This document shows positions 1,098 to 54,689 of a DNA stretch of 64,000 nt, piece after piece; the first letter of the stretch is position 1; each line of letters starts with the position of its first letter. Source of the stretch: Sporopachydermia quercuum (lineage: Eukaryota > Ascomycota > Sporopachydermiomycetes > Sporopachydermiales > Sporopachydermiaceae); assembly GCA_001599295.1 (NCBI GenBank), contig BCGN01000011.1:248001-312000 (forward strand), read 5' to 3'. The notes under the pieces are model-generated. The model saw only the letters and a program-made list of their open reading frames with translations, had not been told where the DNA came from and ran no database searches. The translations under genes were made by a program, and so were the position numbers.

Positions 1098-3602
1098 TTA
1101 ATTCAACAGAGAATGAACATTTGATCCAGCATTTGAAGTATTAACAAAATCAATTCTCTTAGGATCTTCTTCAATTCTGCTTGAATTCACCTTGTTTTTA
1201 ACTCCAATCAAAGAAAACTCAGCCCCAACAACACTTTTCCTATCTGATGCTCCTGACACTGATAGCTTTGGTAACGGCAATTCACTGATATAAGACACAG
1301 ATTGCTTTCTTCTCTCTACAGGTTGACTGCTTGAGCTCAGCGAACGTACTTTCCCTTCATGAGGCTCTCGTATTATTATAGGCACAGGAACTTTCTTATT
1401 ATCAAGTCCTGATCCACTTTGATTCTTGCTGTTGTCAGGAACAGAACCTGATCTGTCAACTCTTTCCTCGAGAACAACGCCAGAAGAAGACGAATGTGCA
1501 GTTTCACCTAACACGGTATTGTTACTATTAACGTTTGCTGTTGACACATGAGTTATGTTATTGCTATTGGGTTTTAGCATTGAAGACGTACCACTAGTGG
1601 AATTACTAGGATGATTCATAGAGCTTGACGAGGGACCTGAGATAGACCCTTGGAAAGGATTCGTTGCCAACGGATCATATAAGACAGAAGGATTTCTGTT
1701 TCTGCCCGCCCCAGTGAATTTGATTTCACTCCAATGAGAATCTCTAGCAGTTCTACTCCATGGGCCGGTAAAATTACCTACATGAGACGTGTCATCAGGC
1801 TTCAGTTTACTTCGAGCTCTTCCACCGTCGTTGGTATCATTTAGACCAGATCTTTGATGAGATTGGGTCTGATTTAGGCCAAATGCTCTCCCTGATCTTG
1901 GTGATGGTTCCTCTGATCTTTCAAATTTACGAACAGGAGGAGGGGTTCTTGCCTTCATTCTCTCATCTGATAGTTTCTGGCTCAATGCTGGTCTTTTGTT
2001 GTTTTGGTTCAATCCTAGATGATTCGTACTGTTATTGACTTGTTGCTGTTGTTGCTGTTGTTGTTGCTGTTGATGATGATGCAGCTCATCTGTACCACCG
2101 AATAAACCTCCTAAAACCGAAGAATTGTTGACGCTTTGTCCCTGGCCTTGGTTTTGGTTGTGGTGCTGGTTATGACTCTGGTTCCGACATTGATCTAGCT
2201 GTTGTATGATCGTCCGGAGGAGAAATAACATGTCAGACTTCGTCTTGCTTAAGTCTTCTACCACTTTATCATATTTCGAGAACAAATGAGAATAATCCTG
2301 TGATATCATCGCCATCTTCTCCTGAAGTTCATATAATCGTGCCTCTAGAAATGCTATATGGTCTGGTGAAGTATGAGAAGATGCCTGAGGAGAAACAGAA
2401 TCAATCCAATGACCTTGAAGATACGCAGAAGTTTGAGCTTGTTGAGAAATGTTTTGTTTATAGCTACCTGAAGATGTTGCTGATGAAGCTTCTTGGGGTT
2501 TCATGAAAGGTGTAGATGCAGATGAAGGAGCCTGCGAGCATGGCGGCCTTGAATAGCCTGGAGTTGAGAAATCAGAAGCTTTCCGCTGAGGACCATTGGG
2601 TCCTGTTTGATGCGATGGAACAAACCGCAGTTCTGTCAAAGAATGAGATCTTGACCCAGACAATGATGATCCTGGTGGATAATTCACAGGGTAACTTCTA
2701 TCACGTATGCTCTCTAAATCAGAATACTCTATTGACAGATGGCGCAATTGCGATGAAGACTGAGGTAAATACATTGACGGGCCGCTAGCACCAAGCGGTA
2801 AAGGTCTTTGGGTCATCATGCCACTATCATCATGTAAAGAAGCTGCATTCTCATCACCTGTAGAGGAAGCAAGATCATGTTTCCACGATGCTTGCACTGC
2901 TGATCTAACATCTTTAGTCGATTGTTTTGAAGATCTTCTTTTGATGTTTTTTAACGATTCGGAATCACCTTTCTTAAAATTGCCTGTCGAATGCTTGAAT
3001 TCCCATAGATTAAGAGCATGTGCATGTTCATCACTATGCACTGTGTCACTAGCTGATGACTGCGAGTTATCGTTTACTTTATGGAAACCATACATATTTA
3101 ACTGACGGATAAATGATGAAATGTTTCCATGTTTAAAGTACTGGCTCAAAATGTTGGAAAACTCTTCACCAGGATTAATGAAAAATGAATCACCTGTCTC
3201 CGACCAGAAGATCAGATGAGTCAGAGATTCTTCCTCAAGCATATTGTATAATTTATGTATGAATATTGTTTGATTGCCTGAGGTTGGCCTTGAAGAAGTT
3301 GTGGTGTCCGTACCTGTATTTGGTCTTGACGAGGTTGTAGTATCAGCACCTGTATTTGAATCTGCAGATGCATTGGTAGCAGCAGCTGCTCCAGAGTTTG
3401 ATGTAGCTATGGCTGTTGTTGAACTGACAGCTCCTAATGAATCATTCATGGTGGTACTACTACTAATATTAGAAGTGCTATTATTACTGTCTGATTTATC
3501 ACTTTTTGATGATTTCAACGAAGTTGTCGATGTTCGTCTTGGAGGATCTGTTTTGCTTTCAGCCTTCACTTCAGGCTTACCATCTTGTTTACCTGGTAAC
3601 AT
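1098..3602 (-). CDS. SFL1: SFL1-like HSF-domain transcription regulator
   Basis: Sequence-specific nuclear regulator of the heat-shock-factor fold. The HSF DNA-binding domain is at about residues 109-225 and contains FIHKLYNMLEEES, SFIRQLNMYGFHKV and WEFKH. Spacing and the FIHKLY start resemble Sfl1 (flocculation and filamentation repressor) more than Hsf1. A coiled coil follows at about 414-470 (FLEARLYELQEKM), then a His/Gln run at about 509-520, and the rest is Ser/Asn-rich and disordered. Length is 834 aa against about 770 in S. cerevisiae Sfl1. The frame stays open 20 codons upstream, but only to a GTG, so the ATG at 3600-3602 is chosen. Just before the DNA-binding domain a TTTSSRP-containing segment is tandemly duplicated. 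The 4.1 kb upstream without another minus-strand gene suits a heavily regulated factor. An Mga1-type paralogue is the main alternative. Confidence 0.88.
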   Translation of the reverse strand: MLPGKQDGKPEVKAESKTDPPRRTSTTSLKSSKSDKSDSNNSTSNISSSTTMNDSLGAVSSTTAIATSNSGAAAATNASADSNTGADTTTSSRPNTGTDTTTSSRPTSGNQTIFIHKLYNMLEEESLTHLIFWSETGDSFFINPGEEFSNILSQYFKHGNISSFIRQLNMYGFHKVNDNSQSSASDTVHSDEHAHALNLWEFKHSTGNFKKGDSESLKNIKRRSSKQSTKDVRSAVQASWKHDLASSTGDENAASLHDDSGMMTQRPLPLGASGPSMYLPQSSSQLRHLSIEYSDLESIRDRSYPVNYPPGSSLSGSRSHSLTELRFVPSHQTGPNGPQRKASDFSTPGYSRPPCSQAPSSASTPFMKPQEASSATSSGSYKQNISQQAQTSAYLQGHWIDSVSPQASSHTSPDHIAFLEARLYELQEKMAMISQDYSHLFSKYDKVVEDLSKTKSDMLFLLRTIIQQLDQCRNQSHNQHHNQNQGQGQSVNNSSVLGGLFGGTDELHHHQQQQQQQQQQQVNNSTNHLGLNQNNKRPALSQKLSDERMKARTPPPVRKFERSEEPSPRSGRAFGLNQTQSHQRSGLNDTNDGGRARSKLKPDDTSHVGNFTGPWSRTARDSHWSEIKFTGAGRNRNPSVLYDPLATNPFQGSISGPSSSSMNHPSNSTSGTSSMLKPNSNNITHVSTANVNSNNTVLGETAHSSSSGVVLEERVDRSGSVPDNSKNQSGSGLDNKKVPVPIIIREPHEGKVRSLSSSSQPVERRKQSVSYISELPLPKLSVSGASDRKSVVGAEFSLIGVKNKVNSSRIEEDPKRIDFVNTSNAGSNVHSLLN

Positions 3603-6600: not shown

Positions 6601-7739
6601 CTAATCGGGTAATACAACTTAAATCAGTAAAGTAGCTAGTAATGCAAGATTTATGCAATGAAGATTAGTTTCATTATGGTAGATATATAATTTACATGCA
6701 AATATATGCATGATACAGCTCCAGGTGACTAGAAATTACCTATTGAAGATGAAAAAGCCAATATAACACTAGTTGTTATCATCATGCCAAGGCGATATTT
6801 ATTCCAACAAATATGCCGCGCATAAACAAGGTGCTTGATTTAAGTTATGATAAAGATAAACTTAAACAGTTGAGTATCTTGCATTCTATTCCTTCCAAAT
6901 CGGTATTGGANAAAGAAGTGACTTATATGAGAGAAGAATAAGAATCTTATTTAGGAATGTCACAAGAAAACGGAGATAAATGGAGAATGAAACAATCAAA
7001 TAAGCAAGCAAAAGACAGTTGATACAATTGCCATACTTTTCATACATCGTCTACTCTCGTACTTCAGTATGACATGACTATTACTGAGTATCTTCATGAT
7101 TTACAACGCATGTATGAATATCATTACTTCACAATATCTTTTTATCTTCGAAACGAAAATATCTCATCTCATGAAATTATATTTACCGGTTTGTTCTATG
7201 TCAAGCTCATCGTGACCCATACGTAATATATTAAGCTCATTCACTTCGTGATACGTTTTGTATGAAGTGGGCGAGCATTTTTCACTTCTTTCACTTCTTG
7301 TTACTCATTTTATTTTTTCCATCTTGGACATAAACCATTTTGAGTTGTAAGGATGCTCTAGTCGAAACGAACTTGATGGCCGACCATACAAAATTTTGTC
7401 TGTGACATGACATTATGTCTCATTTTATCAGTNTCCAAAATGTTGATTACCAAATCATAAAATCATGAAATCGCTTGCATAACTAGAAGGTCAGATGACA
7501 TAAATTTCCCTTTTAATAGATTGTGCAGATGTTGATTGTAGTATATCACCAATATTGAATTGATGTTGCTCATAGGATCAATAACAATGAATTGATGATG
7601 ACTATTCATGAGAGAACCGTGATTGATAATTTGCTGTGACTAACTGAAATTATTTCTTGATGTTATACGTATTATCAGTTTGCTTTAAGAGTAGTGTCTG
7701 AAAAGTTGTCATTTAGGGAAGAAGCATCAAATACTAAGA
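3603..7739. promoter_or_regulatory. 4.1 kb intergenic region between divergent SFL1-like and CENP-W genes
   Basis: No gene, tRNA or homologous coding exon could be supported over this stretch; frames are short on both strands. It is the shared upstream region of the SFL1-like regulator (minus) and CENP-W (plus). Long upstream regions are typical of yeast morphology regulators, so a large control region or an unrecognised non-coding RNA is plausible, but that is inference. Confidence 0.4.
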
Positions 7740-8239
7740 ATGGCTCCTGGTACCACCTATCCTAAGGCTAACATCCGAAAAGTGATGAAAAGAAATCAAC
7801 GTCATAAATTATCAAGAGGATCTGAATTACTCGTAAGTTGCGTAGCTCTTTTCTGTAAATTAGATCTCGATCATGCAATTAAGCAGGTTGAAGGATTCGA
7901 AGATCGGAGGCTAACACCCTAGAAAAGATTTACTTAGATTATGTGATATTCCTTGACAGGTAAGAGATTGTAAAAGTATATATGAAGTGACGCTTGGTGA
8001 AAGATAATTCTTTAGCAGTTGATAAGAAATACTAACAGATTTAAAGACTAATGAAATCTGCGGTGGGTGATCATAGGAATGAAATGGGAACAAAAGGAAC
8101 AATATTACCAAGAAATATTCGAATTGTAGAGTCTGTAAGTGCTTTTGGATAATTAATGATTACTATGTATTAATGATTCTGCAAGCACTCATTCTAACAT
8201 TTTTGTTTACAGAGCGTTCTAGATGAGTTCAAAGGCTGA
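7740..8239 (+). CDS. CENP-W-like kinetochore histone-fold protein, four exons
   Basis: Exons 7740-7832, 7928-7959, 8047-8134 and 8213-8239 give a 79-aa protein. Introns of 95, 87 and 78 nt start GTAAGT, GTAAGA and GTAAGT; the first and third have CTAAC branch-like sites before AG, the second TACTAAC close to its AG. Phases fit exactly, and the nearby alternative acceptors in introns 1 and 2 hit stops at once. The product matches the fungal CENP-W pattern from end to end: TYPKANIRKVMKR at the N-terminus, ELLIYLDYVIFLDRLMK in the central helix, PRNIRIVESSVLDEFKG at the C-terminus. CENP-W pairs with CENP-T in the inner kinetochore (CCAN) and contacts DNA through its histone fold. The match is from memory of the family, not a search. 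Three introns in 240 coding bases is extreme for a yeast. Read without splicing, only a meaningless 60-codon frame is seen. Confidence 0.85.
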
Positions 8240-8740: not shown

Positions 8741-10196
8741 TTAAGCATGGGCTAAAAATCGCACCATTTTGATTGCCTCTTCAGGATCTTTCTTATTCAT
8801 GGAGAATAAACCCTGTAACTCAGCAGTGCTGACATTCTGGCCGACCATTCTAACTGCCTTGAGGAACTCATCTCCCAACTCTGTCTTGTCTTTACCATAG
8901 AAATGAACGAACATCTCCTTAATTTGATAATGAGAAGCATAATTCAAGCATTCTTTCACGTCAATTCTACCTGGCCGCATCAAAGCAGGATCTAGTTTTT
9001 CTGGGTGATTAGTTGTCATGAATGTGATTGCTTCTTCAGCAGAAGCCACACCGTCTAAAGCATTCAACAAACCAGAAAATGTAACTCTTGATGCGTATCC
9101 ACCATCTTCCGTTTGCTCTCTTTGGTTAAATGCAGCATCAATATCTTCCAAGAGTAAGATACTTCTAGGTGGAACGTGGTTCATCAAATGATTCAGTCTG
9201 TCATCAGTCAAATGGTTTTCTGATAGATTAAGAATACAGATATTATAGTTCAAATGACCGGCTAAAGCTTGAATAAAACTAGATTTACCACTGCCAGGTG
9301 GACCAAACAATAGATATCCTCTTCTGTAAGGAATACCTCTGTCATAGTACCATTGACTGCTACGTAAAAACTCTTCCACATCTCCAACAATCTTCTCCTT
9401 AACACCATGATCTAATACTACAGAATCTAGAGATCTCTTCTTTCTGGGCTGACCAAACTGTCTCCACTCGTGACCCCTTGATAGGAACATCACAGTTTTT
9501 CCTTGCGTTGATTTCAATGCCAAATCTCGAGCATCCGCAAGCATCTGCGAAAACAAATGTCGATCTCGATACAAAGTAGTAATCTTGACCATTTCGAAAG
9601 GTGATCCATTATTCAAATCCATTATCCGTTCAGATCGTTCCCTGTTAATAAATAAATATGCACCTTTATACTTAATCAAATGATTTCCTGTGCCCGGTAC
9701 CATGGAAAACTTTGTAGATGCACTTCCGTTATCATGAACAACATATTCCGTTTCTACTCCAAACTTACGTGACATTCTATTAGGATTCTGTGCAACCCAT
9801 TCTAAAAACCAACTATATGACTGATCTCTCGATGTGATCTCTAGCTCTGCTAACATTTGTCGATACATGAATTGAGATCCCTGTATGATACCTTTCCTAG
9901 CTATAGCTAATGCTGATCCTAAGAGCATGAGGCCTCCTCCCTATAATTGAGTTAGAACCATAATTCGTCCAACATTCTGCTGTCCAATGAAGGAGGTATT
10001 CACAAGAAGAAATTCAGAGTATTCTACATACTGCGGCAAAATAAGGGTTTGATTTGATGACTTCCCCTAGTAAATTTCTTAAGGGTTCTGGTGCACTATG
10101 GATGAGACTTGACTGGTCTCCCAGGCCTGGTTGGCNTGGTGGTGTTGAGGAAACATCAACAGGAGTAGGATTAGCTGGGTTGGTTTGGGAATCCAT
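8741..10196 (-). CDS. BCS1: BCS1, mitochondrial AAA protein for Rieske Fe-S insertion into complex III
   Basis: Inner-membrane AAA ATPase that translocates the folded Rieske protein during bc1 assembly. Two exons, 10196-10032 and 9940-8741, flank a 91-nt intron (GTATGT, TTCTAAC, TATAG), giving 454 aa against 456 in S. cerevisiae. The splice joins NPYFAA to GGGLMLLG, exactly the conserved start of the membrane segment (about residues 54-73). The Bcs1-specific domain follows ([30 protein letters not shown]). In the AAA domain, Walker A GPPGSGKS is at 268-275 and Walker B LLLEDID at 317-323, with [21 protein letters not shown] as sensor and arginine-finger region. The N-terminal exon is divergent, as usual. 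One N lies in codon 21. The ATG-proximal gene is divergent from UBP2. Confidence 0.97.
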
Positions 10197-22205: not shown

Positions 22206-22288
22206 GGCAATCTGGCCGAGTTGGTCTAAGGCGTCAGGTTAAGGTCCTGATCTCTTCGGAGGCCTGGGTTCGAATCCCAGGGTTGTCA
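22206..22288 (+). tRNA. tRNA-Leu(AAG)
   Basis: Class II tRNA. The acceptor stem GGCAATC pairs with GGTTGTC (two G-U pairs), and 22288 A is the discriminator. The D arm carries the A box TGGCCGAGTTGG. Anticodon stem TCAGG/CCTGA encloses the loop TTAAGGT, anticodon AAG. There is a long variable arm (TCTCTTCGGAGG), and the T arm with B box GGTTCGAATCC closes it. There is no intron. A run of eight T at 22295-22302 is the Pol III terminator. It decodes CUU, and CUC as well if A34 is inosine. The LTR-like array ends just upstream. Confidence 0.97.
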
Positions 22289-26231: not shown

Positions 26232-26317
26232 TCTCCCGAGGGTGAATCGAACACCCGATCTCAAGATAACAATTAACCATTACAGTCTCGCGCCTTAGCC
26301 AACTGGGCCATCGGGAG
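26232..26317 (-). tRNA. tRNA-Tyr(GTA) with intron
   Basis: Acceptor stem CTCCCGA/TCGGGAG, discriminator A (26232). D arm with GGCCCAGTTGGCTAAGGC. Anticodon GTA in CTGTAA, then a 12-nt intron at 26268-26279 one base 3' of the anticodon, the canonical tRNA intron position. The T arm is GGGTGTTCGATTCACCC. Layout and sequence match yeast tRNA-Tyr, whose genes all carry introns. A run of seven T on the minus strand (26223-26229) is the Pol III terminator. Confidence 0.97.
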
Positions 26318-53538: not shown

Positions 53539-54689
53539 ATGTTCACACTATCACTTGCCCGAGCTACAGTTCAATCAAGGATCAAACCAGTTATTGGGAT
53601 CAAAACTATCAGAGCTATAAGAAACATGTCAGTCTTCAATAAGCAATTTGAACATATTTTACTATCAACACCAAAACCAGGTGTTGGATTGGTTCAACTG
53701 AATCGTCCTAAGGCTTTGAATGCTTTATGTTCACCATTGATTAGTGAATTAAATGAAGCATTGGGGGAATTTGAAAAAGATGATAAAATTGGGGCTATTG
53801 TAATTACAGGCAGCGAAAGAGCATTTGCTGGTAAGTAAGGTGTAGATTTAAGAGAAAGATGTGGATTTAAATAGAACATATTGATACACTTGAACAGTAT
53901 GATTTCTTTGATTACTAGTTACTAACTAAGTATCTTAGCTGGTGCTGATATCAAGGAAATGCTTGATTATTCAACTGAGGATGTATTGTCCAAGGATTTC
54001 ATCAATCCATGGTCAAACATTATGAATATAACAAAACCAATTATTGGTGCTGTTAATGGATTTGCTGTAAGTGGGTTTTCATGTACTTGCTTGGGATATG
54101 CCAGATACGAGATATAATACTACTTCTGAAGCAAACAACTAAAGTTCAATCAGCTACTATGATCGTTCGTTTATTTTTATATCCTTATTATTAACATTTT
54201 TATCAGCTTGGAGGAGGATGTGAATTAGCTATGACTCTTGATATTCTGTATGCTGGAGAAAAAGCAAAATTTGGGCAACCAGAAATCAATCTTGGTATCA
54301 TTCCTGGTGCAGGTGGTACTCAAAGATTGATTCGTGCTATAGGAAAATCAAGAGCGATGGAATATTGTCTGACCGGTAAGATGTTCACAGCTCAAGAAGC
54401 TTACAATTGGGGTTTGGTTTCTAAAATTTTTCCACCTGAGCAATTGTTAGAAGAAACTATTAAGCTTGCAGAAGAAATTTCTAGTAAAGGACGTCTTGCT
54501 ACTAAGAGTGTTAAGAAATGTGTTAACATGGCTAATCAAGTTGATCTTGAAAGCGGATTGATTCTTGAAAGAAGCACATTTTACGGTTTATTTGGTACTT
54601 CTGATAGAGTGGAAGGTATGAAAGCATTCACAGAGAAGAGACAACCTGTTTGGAGACATCAAAGAGCAGAATCATCTGAGAAGTTATGA
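53539..54689 (+). CDS. mitochondrial short-chain enoyl-CoA hydratase, three exons
   Basis: Crotonase-family enzyme that hydrates 2-trans-enoyl-CoA in mitochondrial beta-oxidation or amino-acid breakdown. Exons 53539-53830, 53939-54066 and 54207-54689 with introns of 108 nt (GTAAGT, TACTAAC, TTAG) and 140 nt (GTAAGT, TTAAC, TCAG) give 300 aa. The splices restore [11 protein letters not shown] and [16 protein letters not shown], both conserved. Catalytic Glu146 (GGGCELAM) and Glu166 (FGQPEINLG) have the 20-residue spacing of rat Glu144/Glu164; PGAGGTQRL follows. The C-terminus [12 protein letters not shown] matches ECHS1. The frame continues upstream to 53374, but [17 protein letters not shown] is a better mitochondrial presequence start. 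The CTG at 53698 encodes the invariant Leu of [10 protein letters not shown]. Confidence 0.95.

Follow-up and report, generated by a model that had tools for sequence, protein, structure and literature searches.

CENP-T and CENP-W form a histone-fold dimer that binds CENP-H/I/K mainly via CENP-T, a fitted model of this dimer contacts CENP-A nucleosome DNA, and CENP-T reaches the outer kinetochore through an N-terminal Ndc80-binding motif, as set out in passages of PMC7641736. The stability of CENP-T generally needs CENP-W, with exceptions in insects and some mites or ticks, and the two proteins are typically kept or lost together, according to sections of PMC12678787. We analyzed 64,000 nucleotides of the Sporopachydermia quercuum genome (16.4 Mb, 12 contigs), positions 248001-312000 of contig C11 (BCGN01000011.1), referred to below as the window, in which a preliminary description had proposed a hidden CENP-W gene. 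We consider it highly probable (about 0.94) that this budding-yeast genome has its only CENP-W (Wip1) gene at this locus, a gene of four exons and three short spliceosomal introns. This call is based on the reading frame, on the splice signals, on a product that resembles CENP-W over its full length, and on CENP-T and other inner-kinetochore genes being present in the genome. Read in this way, the locus is a real gene with an ordinary function, by which the known CENP-W family gains one member.

The locus sits in a gap of approximately 5.1 kb, bounded by position 3602, where an HSF-type gene frame ends, and by BCS1 at 8741, and the surrounding genes look budding-yeast-like (BCS1, the HSF-type factor and a Ubp2-like hydrolase). 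Joining the four exons listed in Table 1 (93, 32, 88 and 27 nt, the longest of 31 codons) yields a 240-nt frame encoding a 79-aa product, MAPGTTYPKANIRKVMKRNQRHKLSRGSELLIYLDYVIFLDRLMKSAVGDHRNEMGTKGTILPRNIRIVESSVLDEFKG, whereas the unspliced ATG at 7740 opens 60 codons. The spliced frame has its start, stop and splice signals and no internal stop, an in-frame stop lies upstream of exon 1 at 7692, and not a single N falls within 7740-8239. The exon and intron coordinates, the exon lengths including the 32-nt exon 2, the product, the 60-codon unspliced frame and the gap of about 5 kb given in the preliminary description were all reproduced. The YPKANIRKV stretch of exon 1 aligns with fungal YPRATVKKI, and the end of exon 4 aligns with the fungal LRKFKG and vertebrate LKKSRG ends.

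A search of the PDB (177,635 distinct sequences) with the product alone returned four matches at E≤10, and all four were CENP-W, from chicken (6.6e-5, 7e-5 and 1e-4) and human (0.32). The best Pfam family was likewise CENP-W (PF15510; E 5.5e-4, 20.6 bits). With the 79-aa product as the only query, a homologue search gave no match, because no candidate shared three 5-residue words with it. An alignment of the product, chicken and human CENP-W, and a bait sequence had 871 candidates, of which 658 proteins matched at E≤1. Named vertebrate CENP-W predominates among the 120 matches listed, together with some fungal proteins, and from these listed matches we chose nine fungal relatives, eight with fungal names and one (P0097) without a source name. 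All nine align end to end with the product at 32-44% identity, in agreement with the earlier claim of a CENP-W match along the whole length. In their alignment with the window protein (ten members) 17 columns are invariant, the first being Y7 and P8 and the last K78 and G79, and P8 and G79 stay invariant when chicken and human CENP-W are added; the product thus carries both the N-terminal P-[RK] motif and the C-terminal (K/R)G end of a small single-histone-fold protein that matches the family over its entire length. In the profile comparison that the preliminary description had proposed, the product scored 56.0 bits over positions 6-78 of 78 in a fungal CENP-W profile made from the nine relatives without the window sequence, and 28.6 bits in a vertebrate CENP-W profile. 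When the ten members were scanned against Pfam, all matched CENP-W at E≤0.1. A profile of the same ten found 27 PDB matches, with chicken CENP-W first (3.4e-10 to 8.3e-10), followed by HmvA (9.1e-7), human CENP-W (4.8e-5) and an S. pombe Dpb4-Dpb3 chain (6.3e-5). Structural support is indirect and weak: a predicted model of the relative P0097 has helices at 10-21, 25-54 and 62-76 (pLDDT 70.6, pTM 0.41), and its four best Foldseek matches were CENP-W chains, although weak ones (E 0.014 to 0.11, root-mean-square deviation 8.4).

The kinetochore partner of CENP-W was found in the same genome, with CENP-T matching PF15511 at 86.5 bits (E 1.7e-23; C12:50839-51150) and its 498-aa frame on contig 12 scoring 82.5 bits, with the histone fold placed by Pfam at about residues 323-426. 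CENP-S (C5), CENP-X (C3), CENP-I (C4) and CENP-C (C4) exceed their Pfam cut-offs, and an H3-like protein at C2:2105058 is read as CENP-A, so that a large part of the inner kinetochore is retained in this genome. Because CENP-T is present, a CENP-W is expected, and the gene at this locus fills that slot. No second copy of CENP-W appeared in the genome protein search, which beyond the exons of the locus matched only an H2A.Z-like gene (E 0.056). A pattern match encoding YPKANI at C3:1680227 was rejected, having no CENP-W-like frame around it and no match in the protein search. By analogy with the described complexes, the spliced 79-aa histone-fold protein would pair with the histone fold of the CENP-T encoded on contig 12, and the resulting dimer would sit on the CENP-H/I/K head, touch CENP-A nucleosome DNA and hold CENP-T in a way that lets the N-terminal arm of CENP-T recruit the microtubule-gripping Ndc80 complex.

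To judge the splice signals, ten control introns from six genes of the genome were used (ECHS1, two; BCS1, one; CENP-S, three; Dpb3, one; Dpb4, two; NF-YB, one), whose joins were set by eye to fit the family patterns before the introns were measured. The intron of a second NF-YB gene (L036) was excluded because, judged by eye, the frame stays open with either acceptor. The control introns have a [CT]TAAC branch with the branch A 11-20 nt from the acceptor (n = 10). The three introns of the CENP-W locus have a CTAAC branch and distances of 13, 11 and 15 nt, matching the other introns of the genome in donor, branch point and branch-acceptor spacing, and the donor is GTAAG in all three, as expected from the good donors that had been claimed. 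The CENP-S gene also has four exons (39, 124, 34 and 106 nt), and its 34-nt exon indicates that the 32-nt exon of CENP-W is not odd in this genome. A scan of open reading frames (ORFs) would fragment CENP-S too, making it the second such case among the small histone-fold genes of the kinetochore.

Several results weigh against the assignment as CENP-W. The Pfam score of 20.6 bits lies below the curated cut-off of 25, no source name shown for the nine fungal relatives calls them CENP-W, and the profile made from them is not wholly independent of the product, since they were retrieved with an alignment that included the window protein and the bait. In addition, the ten-member profile ranks the archaeal-type HmvA above human CENP-W, no S. 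cerevisiae Wip1 chain was matched in the PDB searches with the product and the profiles, and the acceptor of introns 1 and 2 is AAG, an ending found in none of the ten control introns, all of which end in TAG or CAG. The Pfam cut-off is not counted as defining CENP-W, because even among the ten aligned members, which match PF15510 at E≤0.1, the best reaches only 1.8e-5. Retrieval by the window protein plays no part in the PDB search with the product alone, and nearly none in the vertebrate profile. The rank of HmvA implies that the histone fold in general contributes to the signal, and on top of it the CENP-W family call is clear. A rival reading is that the product is a different small histone-fold protein, such as Dpb3, Dpb4, NC2 or an NF-Y subunit: the general family CBFD_NFYB_HMF is its weak second Pfam match (E 0.18), nine of the ten aligned members match that family at E≤0.1, and chains of NC2, NF-Y and S. 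pombe Dpb3-Dpb4 are among those matched by the profiles. A search of the genome with PF00808 gave 17 places, which by their sequence patterns we take to include NC2 alpha (L039), NC2 beta (L037), NF-YC (L038), Dpb3 (L045), Dpb4 (L046), two NF-YB (Hap3)-like genes (L035, C8:915153; L036, C2:542024), TAF6, TAF12 and the core histones, so that the Dpb3, Dpb4, NC2 and NF-Y slots each look filled by another gene. In one run of 19 proteins or exons of this genome (the product and 18 others), the product's 56.0 bits with the fungal profile were followed by 16.6 for NC2 alpha, with L037, L038, L039, L045 and L046 at 6.2-16.6 bits and L035 and L036 below zero, and its 28.6 bits with the vertebrate profile were followed by 14.3 for NF-YC, the highest rival. 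In this run H2A was not listed by the fungal profile, nor were CENP-T and CENP-X by the vertebrate one. These values make a different histone-fold protein a very improbable identity for the product, and CENP-W is supported by both profiles, by PDB matches that are all CENP-W, by the best Pfam family and by the presence of CENP-T. The Dpb3-like and Dpb4-like genes are also split by introns, so that several small histone-fold genes carry introns in this genome.

The AAG acceptors of introns 1 and 2, unlike those of all ten controls, could also be taken as a sign that the spliced frame arose by chance or is left over from a dead gene. Spliced frames were enumerated on both strands of the whole window under a strict grammar (ATG start, up to three introns and at least one, each 45-250 nt long, GTA[AGT]G donor, CTAAC branch, acceptor AG 3-21 nt past the branch A, products of 55-130 aa), which gave 19 distinct frames, 16 on the plus and three on the minus strand. 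The six best by the fungal profile are variants of the CENP-W gene (56.0 to 32.9 bits), and the best unrelated frame scored 3.4 bits. A looser grammar produced 2,592 plus-strand and 1,524 minus-strand frames; outside the CENP-W gene the best scored 3.6 bits on the plus strand, counting only frames without overlap to the gene (the overlapping ones are headed by its longer variants), and 2.9 bits on the minus strand. When the window was dinucleotide-shuffled 20 times, the 20,934 spliced frames obtained scored 14.9 bits at most. A chance origin is unlikely on these numbers, and, with the start, stop and splice signals intact and the frame free of internal stops, a chance or dead frame is an explanation to which we give almost no weight. 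The same acceptors admit another reading in which CENP-W is genuine and its supply is throttled by splicing. Intron 1 contains an earlier TAG 8 nt past the branch A, the use of which would start the next exon at 7923 and leads to a stop after 35 residues, and intron 2 an earlier CAG 3 nt past it, which would start the next exon at 8039 and leads to a stop after 45 residues, so that competition between these early AGs and the later, weak AAG acceptors would set the dose, mis-chosen acceptors giving stop-bearing mRNAs. If true, productive splicing of the three introns would limit the CENP-T/W dimer, and hence outer-kinetochore recruitment, per cell. However, two of the ten control introns likewise bypass an early AG (at 5 and 3 nt) and the nearest acceptor used by any of them is 11 nt from the branch A, so the early AGs of the CENP-W introns may be too near for use, and such dose control seems to us improbable.

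A CENP-W gene of this structure is easily overlooked by simple gene searches. A six-frame search of the genome with the Pfam CENP-W model gave no match, because the longest exon has 31 codons and even the spliced product gets a low score from this model, so that the gene is concealed by its introns as well as by its divergence. The locus shows clearly how a conserved kinetochore gene can seem to be missing when it has only about 80 codons, and maps of CENP-T/W presence and absence should use splice-aware searches with fungal profiles. The preliminary description had argued that such genes are often missed in yeast annotation and that claims of gene loss in this lineage could be wrong. This argument is borne out only in part. 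The six-frame search does miss the gene, and in passages of PMC7531349 WIP1 losses were called after scanning intergenic DNA for ORFs, but that screen took YGOB genes as its starting point and dealt with 20 yeasts that diverged before or after the whole-genome duplication. Our literature search yielded no claim of CENP-W loss in this lineage, and neither CENP-W nor CenpW occurs in the main text of Van Hooff et al. 2017, as represented in PMC5579357. Nor is the general point a new one: parts of PMC3161974 already describe short, diverged or intron-bearing yeast genes as overlooked and report intron-aware finds added to YGOB, which makes losses based on YGOB less open to this objection.

Elsewhere in the window, BCS1 has an upstream coding exon and intron absent from its single-frame ORF. 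The best 120 of 4889 matches to BCS1 are 62-67% identical, so that the protein database searched shows no close relative and lacks this BCS1 itself, and the sole CTG codon of its frame aligns to Leu in 119 of these 120, which argues, from one codon, against a CUG-Ser or CUG-Ala yeast. The ORF list shows only the last part of the enoyl-CoA hydratase gene, presumably ECHS1-like from its sequence pattern. An 86-base length suggests that the tRNA called as His may hold an intron and that its anticodon may be miscalled. Over the window, 48 isolated single N, no two adjacent and some within reading frames, look as if they were masked ambiguous or heterozygous bases.

Table 1. Coordinates of the CENP-W locus, of other features of the window and of the CENP-S gene (window positions unless a contig is given)
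Feature	Position	Strand	Remarks
CENP-W exon 1	7740-7832	+	start codon, N-terminus, helix 1, helix 2 start; MAPGTTYPKANIRKVMKRNQRHKLSRGSELL
CENP-W intron 1	7833-7927	+	95 nt, GTAAGT...GGCTAAC...AAG
CENP-W exon 2	7928-7959	+	32 nt, helix 2 core: IYLDYVIFLD and bases 1-2 of an R codon
CENP-W intron 2	7960-8046	+	87 nt, GTAAGA...TACTAAC...AAG
CENP-W exon 3	8047-8134	+	helix 2 end, loop, helix 3; RLMKSAVGDHRNEMGTKGTILPRNIRIVES
CENP-W intron 3	8135-8212	+	78 nt, GTAAGT...TTCTAAC...CAG
CENP-W exon 4	8213-8239	+	C-terminus SVLDEFKG, stop TGA
HSF-type gene	1098-3602	-	gap neighbour
BCS1 single-frame ORF	8741-9928	-	gap neighbour
BCS1 upstream coding exon / intron	10032-10196 / 9941-10031	-	MDSQTNPANP...NPYFAA; 91-nt intron; absent from ORF 8741-9928
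tRNA Leu, anticodon AAG	22206-22288	+	ARAGORN and Rfam, 83 bases
tRNA His, anticodon ATG as called	26232-26317	-	ARAGORN and Rfam, 86 bases
Enoyl-CoA hydratase gene	53539-54689	+	three exons; introns 53831-53938, 54067-54206
CENP-S	G000:C5:44527-45033 (L024)	+	four exons, one 34 nt

Among solved structures, the best matches by sequence to the window protein are vertebrate CENP-W (chicken 3b0c, 3vh5 and 3b0d; human 28op and 7qoo), which are of the same length class and have the same helix order. Identity is 31% to chicken and 24% to human CENP-W, and the single-sequence match to these proteins ends at residue 55 or earlier. By clade, we take S. cerevisiae Wip1 to be the expected orthologue. In Wip1, as stated in a passage of PMC7641736, helices 1 and 2 are separated by a disordered loop of 20 residues, whereas the window protein is without a loop of this type and aligns to chicken CENP-W without such an insertion. 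The alignment can be followed from end to end in the CENP-W-like proteins of filamentous fungi, such as P0078 of Geoglossum umbratile, P0101 of Rhexocercosporidium and P0106 of Histoplasma, which are 76-78 aa long (117 aa in P0093, with an N-terminal extension) and share the pattern YPRAT...LSKN.D.LIFLDY.LF...SVRKVTE..L.KFKG. Compared with these relatives, the yeast protein carries two insertions of one residue each, one close to where helix 2 ends and the other in the following loop, and its C-terminus is more acidic, DEFKG in place of RKFKG.
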